Positions 1,829-15,057 of a stretch of DNA of 64,000 bases are shown in pieces. The notes under the pieces are model-generated. The model ran no database searches. It was not told the origin of the DNA and saw nothing but the letters and a program-made list of their open reading frames with translations. A program made the position numbers and the translations under genes. The first letter of the stretch is position 1. Every line of letters begins with the position of its first letter. Source of the DNA: Mycobacterium gallinarum (lineage in GTDB: Bacteria > Actinomycetota > Actinomycetes > Mycobacteriales > Mycobacteriaceae); assembly GCF_010726765.1 (NCBI RefSeq), contig NZ_AP022601.1:4154001-4218000 (forward strand). The letters are read 5' to 3'.

Positions 1829-3030
1829 GTTTCTCCTATGTCAAGCCGCTGCCAGTTGGCAAGGCTTTTGGCGGTTGTTGTGGTCGGTGTGCAGGTGGCC
1901 GAAGACGACACGGGCCAGACGGCGTTTGAGGCAGCGCAGGGCTTCGGGTGTGGAGTCACCCTCGGTGAGGCGGTGCCGGTAGTAGGTCTGTCCGAGTCCA
2001 TCGAGGCGGACCTGGGTGACCGCAATGCGGTGCAAGGCGGCGTTGAGTTGACGGTTGCCCGAGCGGGTCATTCGGACCCGGCTGCGGGTATTGCCCGACC
2101 ACACCGGAACCGGCGCCACCCCGGCGTGACGGGCGAAAGCCGCCTCACTCTTGAATCGGGTCACCCCGGCGGTCTCGCCGACGAGCTTGGCCGCGGTCAG
2201 TTCCCCGCAGCCGGGCATGGCCAGCAGGACCGGAGCCACGATCCGAACGCGGGCGCCGATGCGTTTGGCCAACGCGTTGATCGTCTCGGTGAGCCGGGTG
2301 ATGTCTGCCAACTCGTCACGCGCCAACTCCGCGACGATCCCGGTCTGGGTGTGCAGCCAGTCGCCGAGGATCCTGCGATGCTTAGTCAGACTCAACGACC
2401 GCGGCTTGGGGGCACGCTCGGGATCGAGTTCATGGACTCGCCACAACAACCGGTTGATTGTCGCTGTCCGTTGCGCCACAAGGACTTCCCGGCGATCCAC
2501 CAGGAGCTTCAACTCCCGCGACACCTCGTCATGAGAGGCGACCGGTAGATCCGGTTCGCGCAGGAATCCCCGCGCGACCGCCAGCGCGTCGATCGGATCG
2601 GACTTACCGCGGGTACGCGCCGAGGCCCTCGTCTGGGCCATCAACTTCGGCGGCACCCGCACCACCTTCTGCCCCAAACCCAACAGGTCGCCCCGGCCGT
2701 GACAGCCGCGACGGTCTTCTCCCCGACCTTGCGGCCCGCCTCGTCGACGGCCACGAAGGTGTGCGTGCGCTTGTGTACATCGGCTCCAACAACAACCATG
2801 ATGGTTGCCTCCATTCACTGTGAGGTGACGGTTGGGCCGGTCGGCGGACATACCTCAGTGGGGGCGGTGCCACGCTCCTATCAAGTCACGCCGGCCGGTC
2901 CTTCACACCTGATGCCGACAAAACGCATGCACGCCAACCCGAAGGCGGCAGCCACGATACGAGCCAGACACCAGGTGCAAAGGATCCAACCACCGCGTAG
3001 CGGCGACCTCACCCTGACACTGACGCCACG
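1829..3030 (-). mobile_element. Decayed IS110-family insertion sequence (copy 1)
   Basis: About 1.2 kb nearly identical to 13753-15050. Identity begins at 1829, two bases upstream of the alkylsulfatase start codon, and ends at 3030, just past the stop of the upstream dehydrogenase gene. No terminal inverted repeats and no target duplication are visible, as expected for IS110. Relative to copy 2 it lacks about 94 bp near 2687-2712, which frameshifts the transposase. The 2815-3030 part is the non-coding end corresponding to the candidate bridge RNA of copy 2. The transposase points the same way as the downstream gene. Confidence 0.85.
1841..2814 (-). pseudogene. IS110-family transposase, frameshifted by internal deletion
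   Basis: Remnant of the same DEDD/serine recombinase as the intact copy at 13765-14832. The original ATG is preserved at 2814. After roughly 34 codons the sequence jumps at 2713/2687, losing about 94 bp relative to copy 2. That number is not a multiple of three, so the N-terminal D-containing segment and the rest of the protein are in different frames. From 2687 down to the stop at 1841 the frame is clean and encodes the KSDPIDALAVARG segment and the whole C-terminal transposase_20 domain. No functional full-length protein is expected. The good state of the remainder suggests a recent deletion. Confidence 0.85.
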
Positions 3031-3041
3031 ATATTCATCCG

Positions 3042-6046: not shown

Positions 6047-6460
6047 TCAGCCCTCCTGCTCGGCCAGCCACCGTTCAGCGCGACGCTTCGATGCCCGTGA
6101 CAGCCACGCATCCTGAATCAGCTCGGTCAGTTCGACCTTGCCGATCTCCGCTAACCGGCTGGCGCGCACCAGAACTGAGGGATGACCGTCGAAGCGGTCG
6201 GTGGTGAAGAACAGCGAGCGCGGGTCCTGGATGAGCGCCAGCTTGTCGACCTCCGACTCGACCCAGATCATGATGACGTCGGCGTAGCGCTCACCGGTCT
6301 CGGGATCTTCGGCATCGGGCTGAGGCGTGCGGAAGAACACGAACGACTTACCGCCCACCTGGTAGATCGAATTCCCCTTGGGCCCCTCGATGCGGGTCGT
6401 GTGCGGCATCGACGCGGCGATCTCGTGTACGTCGGCGACACGAGCCGGCCGGTCACGCAT
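6047..6460 (-). CDS. MmcQ/YjbR-family protein
   Basis: 137 residues. The family has a double-wing DNA-binding-like fold with a C-terminal segment involving LIQDAWLSRASKR; its biochemical role is not established. The frame extends to 6502, but ATG at 6460 is chosen because the conserved part (DVHEIAASMPHTTRIEG) begins shortly after and it gives only an 8-bp overlap with the upstream phosphodiesterase gene, suggesting coupling. It converges on the HxlR gene with no gap between stop codons. Related proteins in actinobacteria are often stand-alone housekeeping genes. Confidence 0.75.
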   Translation of the reverse strand: MRDRPARVADVHEIAASMPHTTRIEGPKGNSIYQVGGKSFVFFRTPQPDAEDPETGERYADVIMIWVESEVDKLALIQDPRSLFFTTDRFDGHPSVLVRASRLAEIGKVELTELIQDAWLSRASKRRAERWLAEQEG

Positions 6461-6956
6461 GACGTTCCAAGCGGTGCAGCACGACGTCGGACAACGCACC
6501 ATCGTGCACCGTCGCGGTCATGTACGTACAGAACTCCTGCCGACGGCGGTCGGTCGGCGAGCCCGGATTCAATAATCGCAGGCCTGTTTTCGCGGTGGTG
6601 TCCCATGGGATGTGGCTATGACCGAAGACCAGCACATCGGTGTCGGGGTACAGCTTGGCCATCCTTGCATCGCGGCCGCCCGACGCGCCGGTCTCGTGCG
6701 TGACGGTGAACCGCACCCCGGCGAGCGTGATGTCGGCGCGTTCCGGAAGCCGTCCGCGTAACTCCGCGCCGTCGTTGTTGCCCCAGCAGGCGATCAGCCG
6801 TTCGGCGCGGGCGTCGAGTGTGTCCAGCAGTTGCGGCTCGACCCAATCGCCCGCGTGAATCACCACGTCAGCTGCGTCGACCTCGTCCCACACCCGCGCC
6901 GGCAGGTCGCGGGCACGCTTCGGGACGTGGGTATCGGCGATGAGCAGAAGCCGCAT
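6453..6956 (-). CDS. MJ0936/YfcE-type metallophosphoesterase
   Basis: 167-residue calcineurin-like phosphodiesterase with all metal-site motifs: IADTH (7-11), HAGDW (about 34-38), GNND (about 59-62), THE, and GHSH followed by NPGS near the C-terminus. Members hydrolyse phosphodiesters such as bis-p-nitrophenyl phosphate; the cellular substrate is unknown. The start ATG at 6956 abuts the left copy of the 52-bp direct repeat that bounds the neighbouring islet, so the islet lies directly upstream of this gene and probably separates it from its original promoter or from the DinB-family gene that once preceded it. Confidence 0.85.
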   Translation of the reverse strand: MRLLLIADTHVPKRARDLPARVWDEVDAADVVIHAGDWVEPQLLDTLDARAERLIACWGNNDGAELRGRLPERADITLAGVRFTVTHETGASGGRDARMAKLYPDTDVLVFGHSHIPWDTTAKTGLRLLNPGSPTDRRRQEFCTYMTATVHDGALSDVVLHRLERHA

Positions 6957-7008
6957 CGCCCCAATCTAGCGGCCCGACCGCGGCTGCCATCCGGGCGGCG
7001 GATCTTCA
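6957..7008. repeat. Left 52-bp direct repeat of the islet
   Basis: Matches 8153-8204 with one mismatch (ATCCGGG versus ATCCCGG). Read on the minus strand it encodes PPGWQPRSGR and a TAG stop, the C-terminus of the DinB-family protein, but here it is detached from the gene. Its last three bases (7006-7008) form the stop codon of the islet membrane protein. Confidence 0.85.
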
Positions 7009-7524
7009 GGGCGTTGTAGTGAATGGCCAAAACGGTATCGGCCAAAGGGCATCGGCAGCGACGAGAAAGAACGCTAGTGCCAAGACCCAGAACAACGCAT
7101 AGGGGAGAGCACCCACGAAGCGCCTGAACTTTGGTGGCACGTATCGCGCCAGCGTGTGAAGGCTGTAGCTCGCGACCGCTCCGATGACCGCGGGTAACAC
7201 GGCCAAGCCAACACCAACTATCGCCTGCCGCTTCGTAGGTGATGCAATGTACCCAGCGCCAACCGCATAGAGATACGCGAACAGAGCGGCAATGCCAGTT
7301 CCGAGAGCACCCGCGAACGCGTCGCGATAAAAGTCCACCTGTTTCAACCAACCGAACGGCGTCTGCCAAAAGCGCCTCACTGGGTGGGGTTGGGGAGTCA
7401 ATGCGGATTCTTCTGGCGCAGGCTGAGGAGGTTCCACGATTCCTGCCGCGGGCTGAAGTACGGGTTTGATGGTTCGAACCCGGGCGAGCGACGGCTTGTT
7501 CTTCGGCTGCACGCGTGTAAGCAA
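7006..7524 (-). CDS. Islet membrane protein of unknown function, three predicted transmembrane segments
   Basis: 172 residues if translation begins at TTG 7524, chosen because AGAGAGGAACGAAA precedes it and this leaves a 94-bp divergent promoter region before the plus-strand partner at 7619; an ATG at 7620 in the same frame lacks a ribosome binding site. Residues 1-60 are proline-rich and basic. Three hydrophobic stretches follow: DAFAGALGTGIAALFAYLYA, AIVGVGLAVLPAVIGAVASY and ALPYALFWVLALAFFLVA. No known domain is recognised. The stop codon lies in the left 52-bp repeat, so the gene reaches exactly to the islet boundary. Codon usage is less GC-biased than in neighbouring genes, indicating transfer. 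Confidence 0.6.
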   Translation of the reverse strand: MLTRVQPKNKPSLARVRTIKPVLQPAAGIVEPPQPAPEESALTPQPHPVRRFWQTPFGWLKQVDFYRDAFAGALGTGIAALFAYLYAVGAGYIASPTKRQAIVGVGLAVLPAVIGAVASYSLHTLARYVPPKFRRFVGALPYALFWVLALAFFLVAADALWPIPFWPFTTTP

Positions 7525-7618
7525 TTTCGTTCCTCTCTCGCCATCGAATCTCGCATTCGGACGACACAGGCTACTTTGGCCATCATTCCGTGTCTGGCGG
7601 GTTCGATAGCGTGTTGCC

Positions 7619-8146
7619 ATGTGGGAGTTTTCAGTGGTCGCGACGACTTTGAGCGTCATCGCCATCGCGTTCACCGCGCGCAACTACTGGTGGACCCGGT
7701 ACGCGGCTGTGCGGGAGAACCAAGCAAAATTGCGAGCCGATCTAAAGGACCGTCTGCACCCGTTTGATTTTTGGCGCCTCGAGAAAACCTTGAATCAATT
7801 GCACAGCCGAAGTCCGTCTACTTCTATTGAAGAAGACCTGCGCAAGTTAGGTGAGTACATCAGCTTCCATAAGGACGAGTTCGTCGCTCCCACCCCCGAT
7901 CAACTCCAGATCTTGGCGGACACCATCGAAACGACGAGACGAATGTATGACGCTACGAGGCAACCGCCAACGAGCGACCGAGTCTTGGACGCCGCATACG
8001 AGGCAAACGAGCGCGAGGAGTTAACCAAGCAGTTCAAGCGACTTCGCGCCGAGGTGCGCGTTGTACTCCTGGGTCTCACCCAAATCCAGAAGAAGGTGCT
8101 TAGCACCCGGCAGCAGATCAGGTTGTTCAAGGAGCTGCGAAACTAG
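7619..8146 (+). CDS. Islet protein of unknown function: N-terminal membrane anchor and helical cytoplasmic domain
   Basis: 175 residues. A single hydrophobic stretch near the N-terminus (VVATTLSVIAIAFTARNYWW) should anchor the protein. The rest is charged and helical, with heptad-like leucines in DFWRLEKTLNQLHS and a likely coiled coil in EREELTKQFKRLRAEVRVV at the C-terminus. No family is recognised. It is divergent from the islet membrane protein gene and its AT-richer codons contrast with flanking genes. The pairing of an anchored helical protein with a multi-span protein inside a direct-repeat islet is compatible with a two-component membrane system, but no function can be inferred. The ribosome binding site is weak. 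Confidence 0.6.
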   Translation: MWEFSVVATTLSVIAIAFTARNYWWTRYAAVRENQAKLRADLKDRLHPFDFWRLEKTLNQLHSRSPSTSIEEDLRKLGEYISFHKDEFVAPTPDQLQILADTIETTRRMYDATRQPPTSDRVLDAAYEANEREELTKQFKRLRAEVRVVLLGLTQIQKKVLSTRQQIRLFKELRN

Positions 8147-8152
8147 CCGCAC

Positions 8153-8204
8153 CGCCCCAATCTAGCGGCCCGACCGCGGCTGCCATCCCGGCGGCGGATC
8201 TTCA
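8153..8204. repeat. Right 52-bp direct repeat of the islet
   Basis: The native copy: it contains the last codons and TAG stop (8162-8164) of the DinB-family gene plus nine bases beyond. It matches 6957-7008 with a single mismatch. It marks the presumed insertion site of the islet. Confidence 0.85.
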
Positions 8205-8722
8205 CCCACCCGACCGTCGACGGCCTCGCGGAGCAGGTCGGCGTGCCCGGTGTGCCTGGCGTACTCCTCGATGAAGTCGCATACCACCCGACGCAGGCTG
8301 GCATGGTTGCCGTCATCGTCGGAGACGTGGACCAGCTGATCGAGTCCGCCGCGGGCCAACGCCGCGTCGAGGCGGGTGCGCGAGCGCGCCACCGCGTCCT
8401 CCCACAGTGCGTACAACGTCTCCGGCGGGTCGGCGGCCGCCGACGTGAACTCCCAGTCGTCGGTGCCGTCCCACAGCGTCGCCCACGGCTCGCCGACCGG
8501 TTCGCCGGTGAGCTTCTGGGTGAAGATGTAGTCCTCGTTGATGGCCATGTGCTTGAGCAGACCGCCGAGGGTGATCGCCGAGGCCCCGATGCGCGTCTGC
8601 AGTCCGGCCGCGTCGAGCTCGTCGGTCTTCCAGCGAAACGTCGCCCGCTGCCGATCGAGTGCACCGATCAGTTGCTCGACGTCGGTGCCGGCCAGCGGCG
8701 GTTCCCACGGGGTGTCCGTCAT
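8162..8722 (-). CDS. DinB-superfamily protein (DUF664 type)
   Basis: 186-residue four-helix-bundle protein of the DinB/YfiT superfamily, which includes mycothiol- or bacillithiol-dependent metal enzymes. The metal-ligand histidines are probably those in LLKHMAINE and EEYARHTGHADLLRE. The start at 8722 is preferred: upstream codons in the same frame translate the tRNA-Arg gene (PVAQRIEHLTTD type artefact) and are not protein coding. The 3' end is duplicated at the other side of the islet (6957-7008). Substrate unknown; family assignment is good. Confidence 0.82.
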   Translation of the reverse strand: MTDTPWEPPLAGTDVEQLIGALDRQRATFRWKTDELDAAGLQTRIGASAITLGGLLKHMAINEDYIFTQKLTGEPVGEPWATLWDGTDDWEFTSAAADPPETLYALWEDAVARSRTRLDAALARGGLDQLVHVSDDDGNHASLRRVVCDFIEEYARHTGHADLLREAVDGRVGEDPPPGWQPRSGR

Positions 8723-13750: not shown

Positions 13751-13764
13751 ACGTTTCTCCTATG

Positions 13765-14832
13765 TCAAGCCGCTGCCGGTTGGCAAGGCTTTTGCCGGTT
13801 GTTGTGGTCGGTGTGGAGATGGTTGAAAACGACGCGGGCCAGGCGGCGTTTGAGGCAGCGCAGGGCTTCGGGCGTGGAGTCACCCTCGGCGAGGCGGTGC
13901 CGGTAATAGGTCTGTCCGAGTCCATCGAGGCGGATCTGGGTGACCGCGATTCGGTGCAGTGCCGCGTTGAGTTGACGGTTGCCCGAGCGGGTCAGCCGGA
14001 CCCGTCCGCGGGTGTTACCCGACCACACTGGAACCGGCGCTACTCCGGCATGACGGGCGAAGGCCGCCTCGCTCTTGAATCGCGCCACCCCGGCGGTCTC
14101 ACCGACCAGTTTGGCCGCGGTCAGTTCCCCGCAGCCGGGCATGTCCAGCAAGACCGGGGCCACCACGCGGACACGTTCGCCGATTCGTTTGGCCAGCGCG
14201 TTGATCATCTGGGTGAGTCGGGTGATGTCGGCCAACTCGTCGCGGGCCAGCTCGGCCACGATCCCGGTTTGGAAGTTCAGCCAGTCGCTCAGGAGCCTTC
14301 GGTGCTTGGCCAGATCTAACGAGCGCGGTTTGGGTGCACGCTCGGGATCGAGTTCATGGATCCGCCACAACAGTCGATTGATGGTCGCCGTGCGTTGTGC
14401 CACAAGGACTTCGCGGCGATCCACCAACAGCTTCACCTCCCGCGACACCTCGTCATGAGAAGCGACCGGAAGGTCTGGTTCACGCAGAAACCCCCGCGCC
14501 ACCGCCAGTGCGTCGATCGGATCAGACTTGCCGCGGGTGCGCGCTGAGGCCCGAGTCTGGGCCATCAACTTCGGCGGCACCCGCACCACCTTCTGCCCCA
14601 AACCCAACAGGTCTCGTTCTAGGCGCGCCGACAGATGGCGGCAGTCCTCGATCGCCCAGACGACCTCGGCCCCGAACTGTTCACGGGCCCACATCACCGC
14701 CTCGGCATGCCCGGCGGTGATCGCTTTGACGGTCTTCTCGGCGAGCTTGCGACCCGCCTCATCGACCGCGACGAAGGTATGGGTGCGCTTGTGTACATCG
14801 GCTCCAACAACAACCATGGTGGTTGCCTCCAT
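13765..14832 (-). CDS. IS110-family transposase (bridge-RNA-guided recombinase type)
   Basis: 355 residues, the usual length for IS110. The N-terminal RuvC-like DEDD domain shows VGADVHKRTH (first Asp), AIEDCRHLS (acidic residue near 62) and KSDPIDALAVARG (two Asp near 103-106). A coiled-coil linker follows, then the transposase_20 domain with PGCGELTAAKLVGE and VPVWSGNTRGRVRLTRSGNRQLNAAL, which carries the catalytic serine region. These recombinases join element ends to a target using a bridge RNA from the element's non-coding end. The frame is complete and undamaged, so the copy may be active. An in-frame ATG five codons later is an alternative start. Confidence 0.93.
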   Translation of the reverse strand: MEATTMVVVGADVHKRTHTFVAVDEAGRKLAEKTVKAITAGHAEAVMWAREQFGAEVVWAIEDCRHLSARLERDLLGLGQKVVRVPPKLMAQTRASARTRGKSDPIDALAVARGFLREPDLPVASHDEVSREVKLLVDRREVLVAQRTATINRLLWRIHELDPERAPKPRSLDLAKHRRLLSDWLNFQTGIVAELARDELADITRLTQMINALAKRIGERVRVVAPVLLDMPGCGELTAAKLVGETAGVARFKSEAAFARHAGVAPVPVWSGNTRGRVRLTRSGNRQLNAALHRIAVTQIRLDGLGQTYYRHRLAEGDSTPEALRCLKRRLARVVFNHLHTDHNNRQKPCQPAAA

Positions 14833-15050
14833 TCACTGAGAGGTGACGGTTGGGCCGGTCGGCGGACATACCTCAGTGGGGGCGGTGCCACGCTCCTATC
14901 AAGTCACGCCGGCCGGTCCTTCACACCTGATGCCGGCAAAACGCATGCTCGCCAACCCGAAGGCGGCACCCACGCTATGAGCCAGACACCAGGTGTAAAG
15001 GATCCAACCACCGCAAGAAGCGGTGACCCCACCCTGACACTGACGTCACG
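14833..15050 (-). ncRNA. Candidate bridge RNA region of IS110 copy 2
   Basis: 218 bp of non-coding DNA between the transposase start and the left end of the element, conserved base for base in copy 1 (2815-3030) apart from scattered substitutions. IS110-group elements encode their bridge RNA here. Read on the minus strand it contains hairpins, for example ACCGC-TTCTT-GCGGT near the left end. It also contains CTCCTATCAAG (plus strand, from 14893), nearly the same as CTCCTATGTCAAG at the other end of the element, as expected for a guide loop that matches element or target DNA. Boundaries and expression are inferred. Confidence 0.55.
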
Positions 15051-15057
15051 CTAATAC

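Follow-up and report, generated by a model that had tools for sequence, protein, structure and literature searches.

Foreign DNA bounded by repeats and lacking an integrase is familiar from prophage and island remnants at tRNA genes. A more formally named kind of element is the CIME, which the available portion of PMC5704250 defines as an element that has lost its integration and transfer genes yet keeps attL and attR. Integrase-less islands at ssrA are described in the excerpted text of PMC3146451, and candidate PICIs of mycobacteria are characterized, in the accessible part of PMC10654092, by an integrase together with a major capsid gene. No islet of the kind reported here, or at the site reported here, is described for mycobacteria in the titles and abstract openings of the literature searched.

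The islet lies in the 64-kb stretch of mycobacterial DNA that was analysed as a whole (the window; Table 1), and it consists of DNA of foreign composition between two copies of a duplicated site. A preliminary description of this DNA had reported 52-bp repeats with one mismatch (6957-7008 and 8153-8204). That span is correct, but 8 further bases had been missed: the full repeat is 60 bp long, direct and 58/60 identical, with mismatches at 6956 and 6993. The observation of a repeat-bounded islet is thereby confirmed, as is the claim that the repeat duplicates the end and the stop of a DinB-family gene. The best family match of the host gene is MST (PF04978), a member of the DinB superfamily, at 1.1e-27, as against a marginal 0.059 for DinB_2. 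At its other end the repeat reaches the first 8 bases of the phosphodiesterase gene, the start codon of which (6954-6956) is ATG; GTG is found in the right repeat copy and in all six aligned relatives. The identity of the two copies extends through the spacer, where several relatives differ in the alignment. Such long identity, spacer included, would fit a recent event in this lineage; it would equally fit a duplication made without an integrase.

Table 1. Features of the islet and its host genes, in positions of the window
Feature	Position	Strand	Content or basis
Host YfcE-type phosphodiesterase gene	6453-6956	-	Family match
Left direct repeat, putative attachment copy	6949-7008		DinB/MST gene end, its stop, spacer, phosphodiesterase start codon
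Gene A, 172 aa, three hydrophobic segments	7006-7524	-	Start as in homologues P0010 and P0011; hydropathy
Divergent region between the start codons of A and B, 94 bp	7525-7618		Coordinates; presumed to hold both promoters
Gene B, 175 aa, one N-terminal membrane helix and predicted helical bundle	7619-8146	+	Hydropathy; model
Right direct repeat, putative attachment copy	8145-8204		59/60 to the single copy in G125, the nearest relative
Host DinB-superfamily gene (MST, PF04978), 3' end duplicated	8162-8719	-	Pfam, 1.1e-27

The repeat is rare. A search of the 6.3-Mb genome for wider dispersal found the 60-bp sequence nowhere else at E up to 0.001, and exact shared words of at least 30 bases occur at only three offsets in the 64 kb, one given by the islet repeat and two by a pair of IS copies. 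The IS copies of the window (1829-3033 and 13753-15053) are 88-91% identical and have the islet between them; the frame of the first differs at its start, and their transposase is, as we presume from resemblance, IS110-like.

The insert between the two repeats (7009-8144, 1136 bp) has a GC content of 57.4%, as against a window mean of 66.2% (SD 2.0) for stretches of equal size, and the lowest-GC stretches of this length within the 64 kb are those lying on it. The shift in base composition that had been claimed is thus real. The insert is almost wholly coding: genes A and B are divergent and transcribed outward. A has its stop codon (7006-7008) within the left repeat, and that of B (8144-8146) shares two bases with the start of the right one. 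Gene A appears best read with the boundaries given in Table 1, at the start where its homologues P0010 and P0011 begin. The proposed division into a three-helix membrane protein and an anchored helical protein agrees with the hydropathy profiles (three hydrophobic segments versus one) and with the helical model of B. As had also been stated, the islet brings no recombinase of its own; no recombinase family is encoded in the insert according to Pfam, PHROGs and NCBIfam, its genes being A and B only, and searches of Pfam and PHROGs left no phage gene recognisable in it. Nor is it an insertion sequence or transposon, as it has neither terminal inverted repeats nor a transposase: none of the 18 listed inverted-repeat pairs has arms at both ends of the islet, and neither A nor B has a transposase match.

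Relatives of the host locus provide a second line of evidence. The DinB-type gene was sought in 377 of the 396 genomes of the genus (297, then 80), and 28 loci besides our own were taken as orthologous, 22 with matches at E up to 2.6e-40 and six at up to 1e-40; weaker loci, 34-41% identical (L026-L032 and others), were regarded as paralogues and excluded. The examined flanks of the 28 contain neither A nor B. In nine of the 28 the DinB-type and phosphodiesterase genes adjoin directly, with no insert; counted from the last aligned codon, the gap measures 12-48 bp, being 12-16 bp in seven loci and 35 and 48 bp in the remaining two. The phosphodiesterase gene lies about 450 bp away in two loci, with a RidA-like frame between as judged by eye, and 1.4 kb away in one; in 16 it is outside the examined flank. 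Three of the nine direct-junction genomes have one match each to the 60-bp sequence (59/60 in G125, 88% in G169 and 77% in G201), and the other six are too diverged to match it at E 0.001. These uninterrupted junctions support the claim of insertion at a gene end, and the single copy in G125 is the closest example of such a junction. The empty sites that the preliminary description proposed to look for thus exist, in relatives other than conspecific strains. With one genome of its own species in the comparison, insertion relative to these relatives appears well supported.

The third line of evidence is the distribution of gene B. Its family is present in 15 of the 396 genomes, our own included. 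The other 14 carry it at other loci with 23-49% identity, the exception being G263, where a 35-residue fragment is 68% identical. The protein database holds seven further relatives, 65-76% identical, besides one copy of the window protein, and of the 298 genomes of the order that were scanned with a profile of B, our own and G053 were recovered. B stands last before the repeat in the four elements whose ends are clear (those of the window, G053, G084 and G023), and perhaps in that of G260; three of the four have no integrase match, and the fourth, the capsid-encoding element of G053, has one. That element is 12.1 kb long and sits at tRNA-Leu(taa), with a repeat of 46 bp (40/46) and B as the final gene before it. 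It encodes a tyrosine integrase, a resolvase-like recombinase, a D5-type primase and a major capsid protein (L060 with L116), and its GC content is 59.0%, versus 67% in the flanks. Having an integrase and a capsid gene, it is a candidate phage satellite in the sense of PMC10654092, as far as the accessible part of that source goes. The B gene of G010 shares a contig with a capsid gene assigned to the same PHROG and with an integrase whose identity to the G053 enzyme is 62-64%.

In G084 (L062 with L117), three copies of the 3' half of tRNA-Leu(taa) form a tandem. The first stretch (2.97 kb) carries B, adjoining the repeat, and gave no integrase match; the second (5.2 kb) has an integrase split over two frames and a NOV_C-domain gene. 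The third copy matches the distal copy of G053 at 43/43, and two copies match the intact tRNA at just 36/50 and 34/50. The element has a GC content of 56.5%, versus 66.7% in its flanks. In G023, 2.37 kb between 19-bp copies of the 3' end of tRNA-Leu(gag) hold B and a Phd/PIN toxin-antitoxin-like pair; this stretch has no integrase match and no GC shift (63.1% vs 62.3%). G260 has 7.7 kb at tRNA-Met with a 55-bp repeat, a CAP12-type TIR gene inside and no integrase match; its ends are the less certain for an IS-related repeat beside both tRNA-Met copies. Its B gene is in two pieces, and the frame between them is one that we take to be transposase-like. Elsewhere, a Gabija pair is found at a distance of about 1 kb from B in G236, and B appears internal in the islands of G203 and G140.

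Several genes that accompany B should also be recorded. A gene of about 490 codons adjoins B in G010 (L061 8679-10157; no Pfam match), and B of G323 has similar frames in its vicinity that an insertion seems to have split (L066 4231-6682). In G203 and G225, the gene after B is a conserved one that encodes about 300 aa and has no Pfam match (L057 7081-7974 and L059 8531-9451), and the island of G203 also carries UvrD-type helicase and PDC-S60-like genes.

It should be noted that B adjoins a repeat in at most 5 of the 15 loci, the other 10 having no repeat found or no defined ends. As a control, stretches of 525 bp were placed at random, and we scored those that had the copies of a direct repeat on both sides with the repeat no more than 320 bp away. 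This was so for 1630 of 24347 random placements (6.7%), versus B in 4 of 15 loci; the rate was 82% in the repetitive stretch of G023 and 0-8% in the other 14, so that the pooled rate is driven by G023. The automatic test missed G084 because its copies have diverged, and that element was recognised by the likeness to the G053 repeat; in G260 the test picked the IS-related repeat adjoining the tRNA copies. The enrichment of B next to spanning repeats is therefore suggestive, not strong. Judged by sequence comparison, B recurs as a cargo gene in integrative elements of mycobacteria and is, in several of these, the final gene before an attachment-type repeat.

In our opinion, the locus is probably, though by no means certainly, a very small cis-mobilizable (CIME-like) islet that an integrase belonging to larger mycobacterial elements left behind or moved in trans. 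It would have been placed by site-specific recombination, most likely through a tyrosine integrase that it no longer encodes. Either the middle of a larger island or satellite would have been lost, with two outward-facing genes at its ends remaining, or the element would already have been small when the integrase of another moved it in trans. The outward genes, each ending at a repeat, would fit internal deletion of a larger element and, equally, a minimal cassette. The repeats and their rarity, the empty junctions, the outlying GC content and the presence of B in other elements speak for this explanation; against it stand the lack of any integrase element found at the DinB site, the lack of a match to the repeat core in viral contigs and of more than weak ones in phages, the length of the repeat and its agreement with the lineage, the limited share of B loci that adjoin a repeat, the divergence of the G084 copies, the unshifted GC content in G023 and the IS-related repeat in G260.

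It is unlikely, in our judgement, that the islet is instead a genuinely minimal non-autonomous element, a two-gene, repeat-bounded cassette that moves as a unit with an integrase supplied in trans, as MITEs relate to transposases. Its economy would suit such an element, almost all of the insert being coding, with both stops at the repeats and a divergent region of 94 bp, and small B islets with no integrase match occur twice elsewhere (G023 and G084); these two, however, differ in cargo and target site. Moreover, the database A and B proteins are identical to those of the window save for the first residue, and the largest contig of each is 1220 bp. If this is one shared contig, as it appears to be, its ends would therefore lie in or near the repeats; but the contig may come from the very genome or strain analysed here, and assembly may have determined where it ends. 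The 396 genomes gave no further insertion carrying A together with B, and the proposed search for the same two genes at other loci gave a divided answer: relatives of B occur in other islands, whereas A together with B occurs in our own genome only.

A and B as a fixed pair are consequently ruled out, ours being the sole genome of the 396 with both. Relatives of A were found in seven genomes besides our own among the 396, as weak matches (best E 1.8e-12), and these seven share no member with the other B-bearing genomes. A profile of A recovered only our own genome among 18 tested; it was negative in the 17 others, 14 of which are the B carriers. The two are best regarded as independent cargo. 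In the protein database A has two relatives about 60% identical to it, besides the window's own protein. The weak A relatives in L071 (G258), L073, L075 and L076 adjoin transposases or other variable genes, as judged by eye.

Quite improbable, as we see it, is a duplication made with no site-specific recombinase, such as one due to replication slippage or to illegitimate, homology-assisted recombination of the incoming DNA. The repeat includes bases from the coding parts and the spacer of the two host genes on either side, and it agrees with the lineage (58/60 between the copies, 59/60 to G125), as a target duplication would; the core of a phage-type site need not match the host lineage along its whole length, spacer included. 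The search for an integrase that uses the end of the DinB gene, which the preliminary description had suggested, also leans this way: 15 integrase queries gave no match in the roughly 1.5 kb examined on each side of the 28 orthologous loci. On the other hand, B elsewhere adjoins tRNA-end repeats of the integrase type (G053, G084 and G023), and we know of no transposon that makes target duplications of 60 bp.

Our own genome has 12 tyrosine-integrase matches, none of them inside the window. The 60-bp sequence was matched in 20 of 148 relatives at E 0.001; our own genome has its two copies, and the other 19 have partial matches only, of 23-52 bases. A 22-base core pattern of the repeat had no match in viral contigs, and two weak partial matches of the repeat to Pseudomonas phages (E 0.06) were dismissed. 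Neither A nor B was found in the phage records or viral contigs searched, and a plasmid search matched the islet region at its DinB end only, in 7 Streptomyces records.

The remaining reading, that an ancestral two-gene insert or an ordinary gene gain was lost in relatives and the repeats are incidental, is disfavoured and very improbable, since against the single genome of this species in the comparison and the absence of a direct junction from 19 of the 28 loci stand the precision of the repeat, the GC shift and the gaps of 12-16 bp in seven of the nine adjacent loci.

Returning to the CIME-like islet that we prefer, the products of its genes are largely without recognisable kin. Structure prediction, another of the checks proposed, was informative for B, whose AlphaFold model (14 sequences) has an N-terminal helix followed by a helical bundle with a mean pLDDT of 86; it was not so for A, the model of which is poor (pLDDT 60), and a structure search with the model of B returned no convincing match. 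B has no match above cut-off in Pfam or NCBIfam and none in PHROGs at E 1. Its similarities to DUF5937 (E 0.0022), DUF1687 (0.079) and EPS_EpsF (0.00046) all fall below the curated cut-offs and are distrusted. For A, too, no Pfam or NCBIfam family scored above its curated cut-off, and its sub-threshold similarity to a PHROGs tail family (E 0.65) is not believed. Neither protein matched a known defence family in PADLOC at E 0.01. With low confidence, the likeliest role for B would be that of a membrane-anchored cytoplasmic helical bundle of benefit to the resident element or the host, for example through phage exclusion. It is only from the genes neighbouring B elsewhere that a defence function for the islet might be proposed.

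It is a speculation of ours, and a doubtful one, that B marks a class of miniature integrase-less islets moved in trans by satellite or island integrases, in which it would be a common end-proximal passenger aiding persistence, for instance by membrane-based phage exclusion. In mycobacteria the B family is encountered at the end of a capsid-encoding satellite, in small integrase-less islets and in the neighbourhood of defence genes. Should the islet excise, it would show that single cargo genes can spread with no mobility enzyme of their own. The islet is very small, and its trans-mobilisation would be easy to test. Overall, the earlier interpretation of this islet is partly supported.

Compared with the systems introduced above, the islet shares with the remnants at tRNA genes the character of repeat-bounded foreign DNA with no integrase. 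It differs from them in that its target is a junction of protein genes, both of its open reading frames are intact up to the repeats, and no phage gene is recognisable. From the mycobacterial PICIs, as they are characterized in the accessible part of PMC10654092, it is set apart by the lack of both integrase and capsid gene, and it cannot be called a PICI, although one such element (that of G053) ends with B, and in G010 a similar capsid gene and integrase are found close to B.

The CIME appears to be the nearest named kind. Like the CIMEs of the available portion of PMC5704250, the islet lacks integration and transfer genes and has direct repeats at the 3' end of a gene; attL and attR would correspond in form only, as the 58/60 repeats and the empty junctions. 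Moreover, the B islet of G084 forms a tandem with a stretch in which the integrase is broken, an arrangement described for CIMEs. The islet differs in being far smaller (1.2 kb), in that no ICE or IME is seen at the DinB site, and in that its related elements are partly phage-satellite-like, not conjugative. As to parentage, B occurs in the integrase-bearing G053 and G010, and no full-length parent was found at the DinB site among the 28 loci. Thus, the kind of element, CIME-like, is known; what is new is a very small member of it, with a recurring cargo family that lacks a name.
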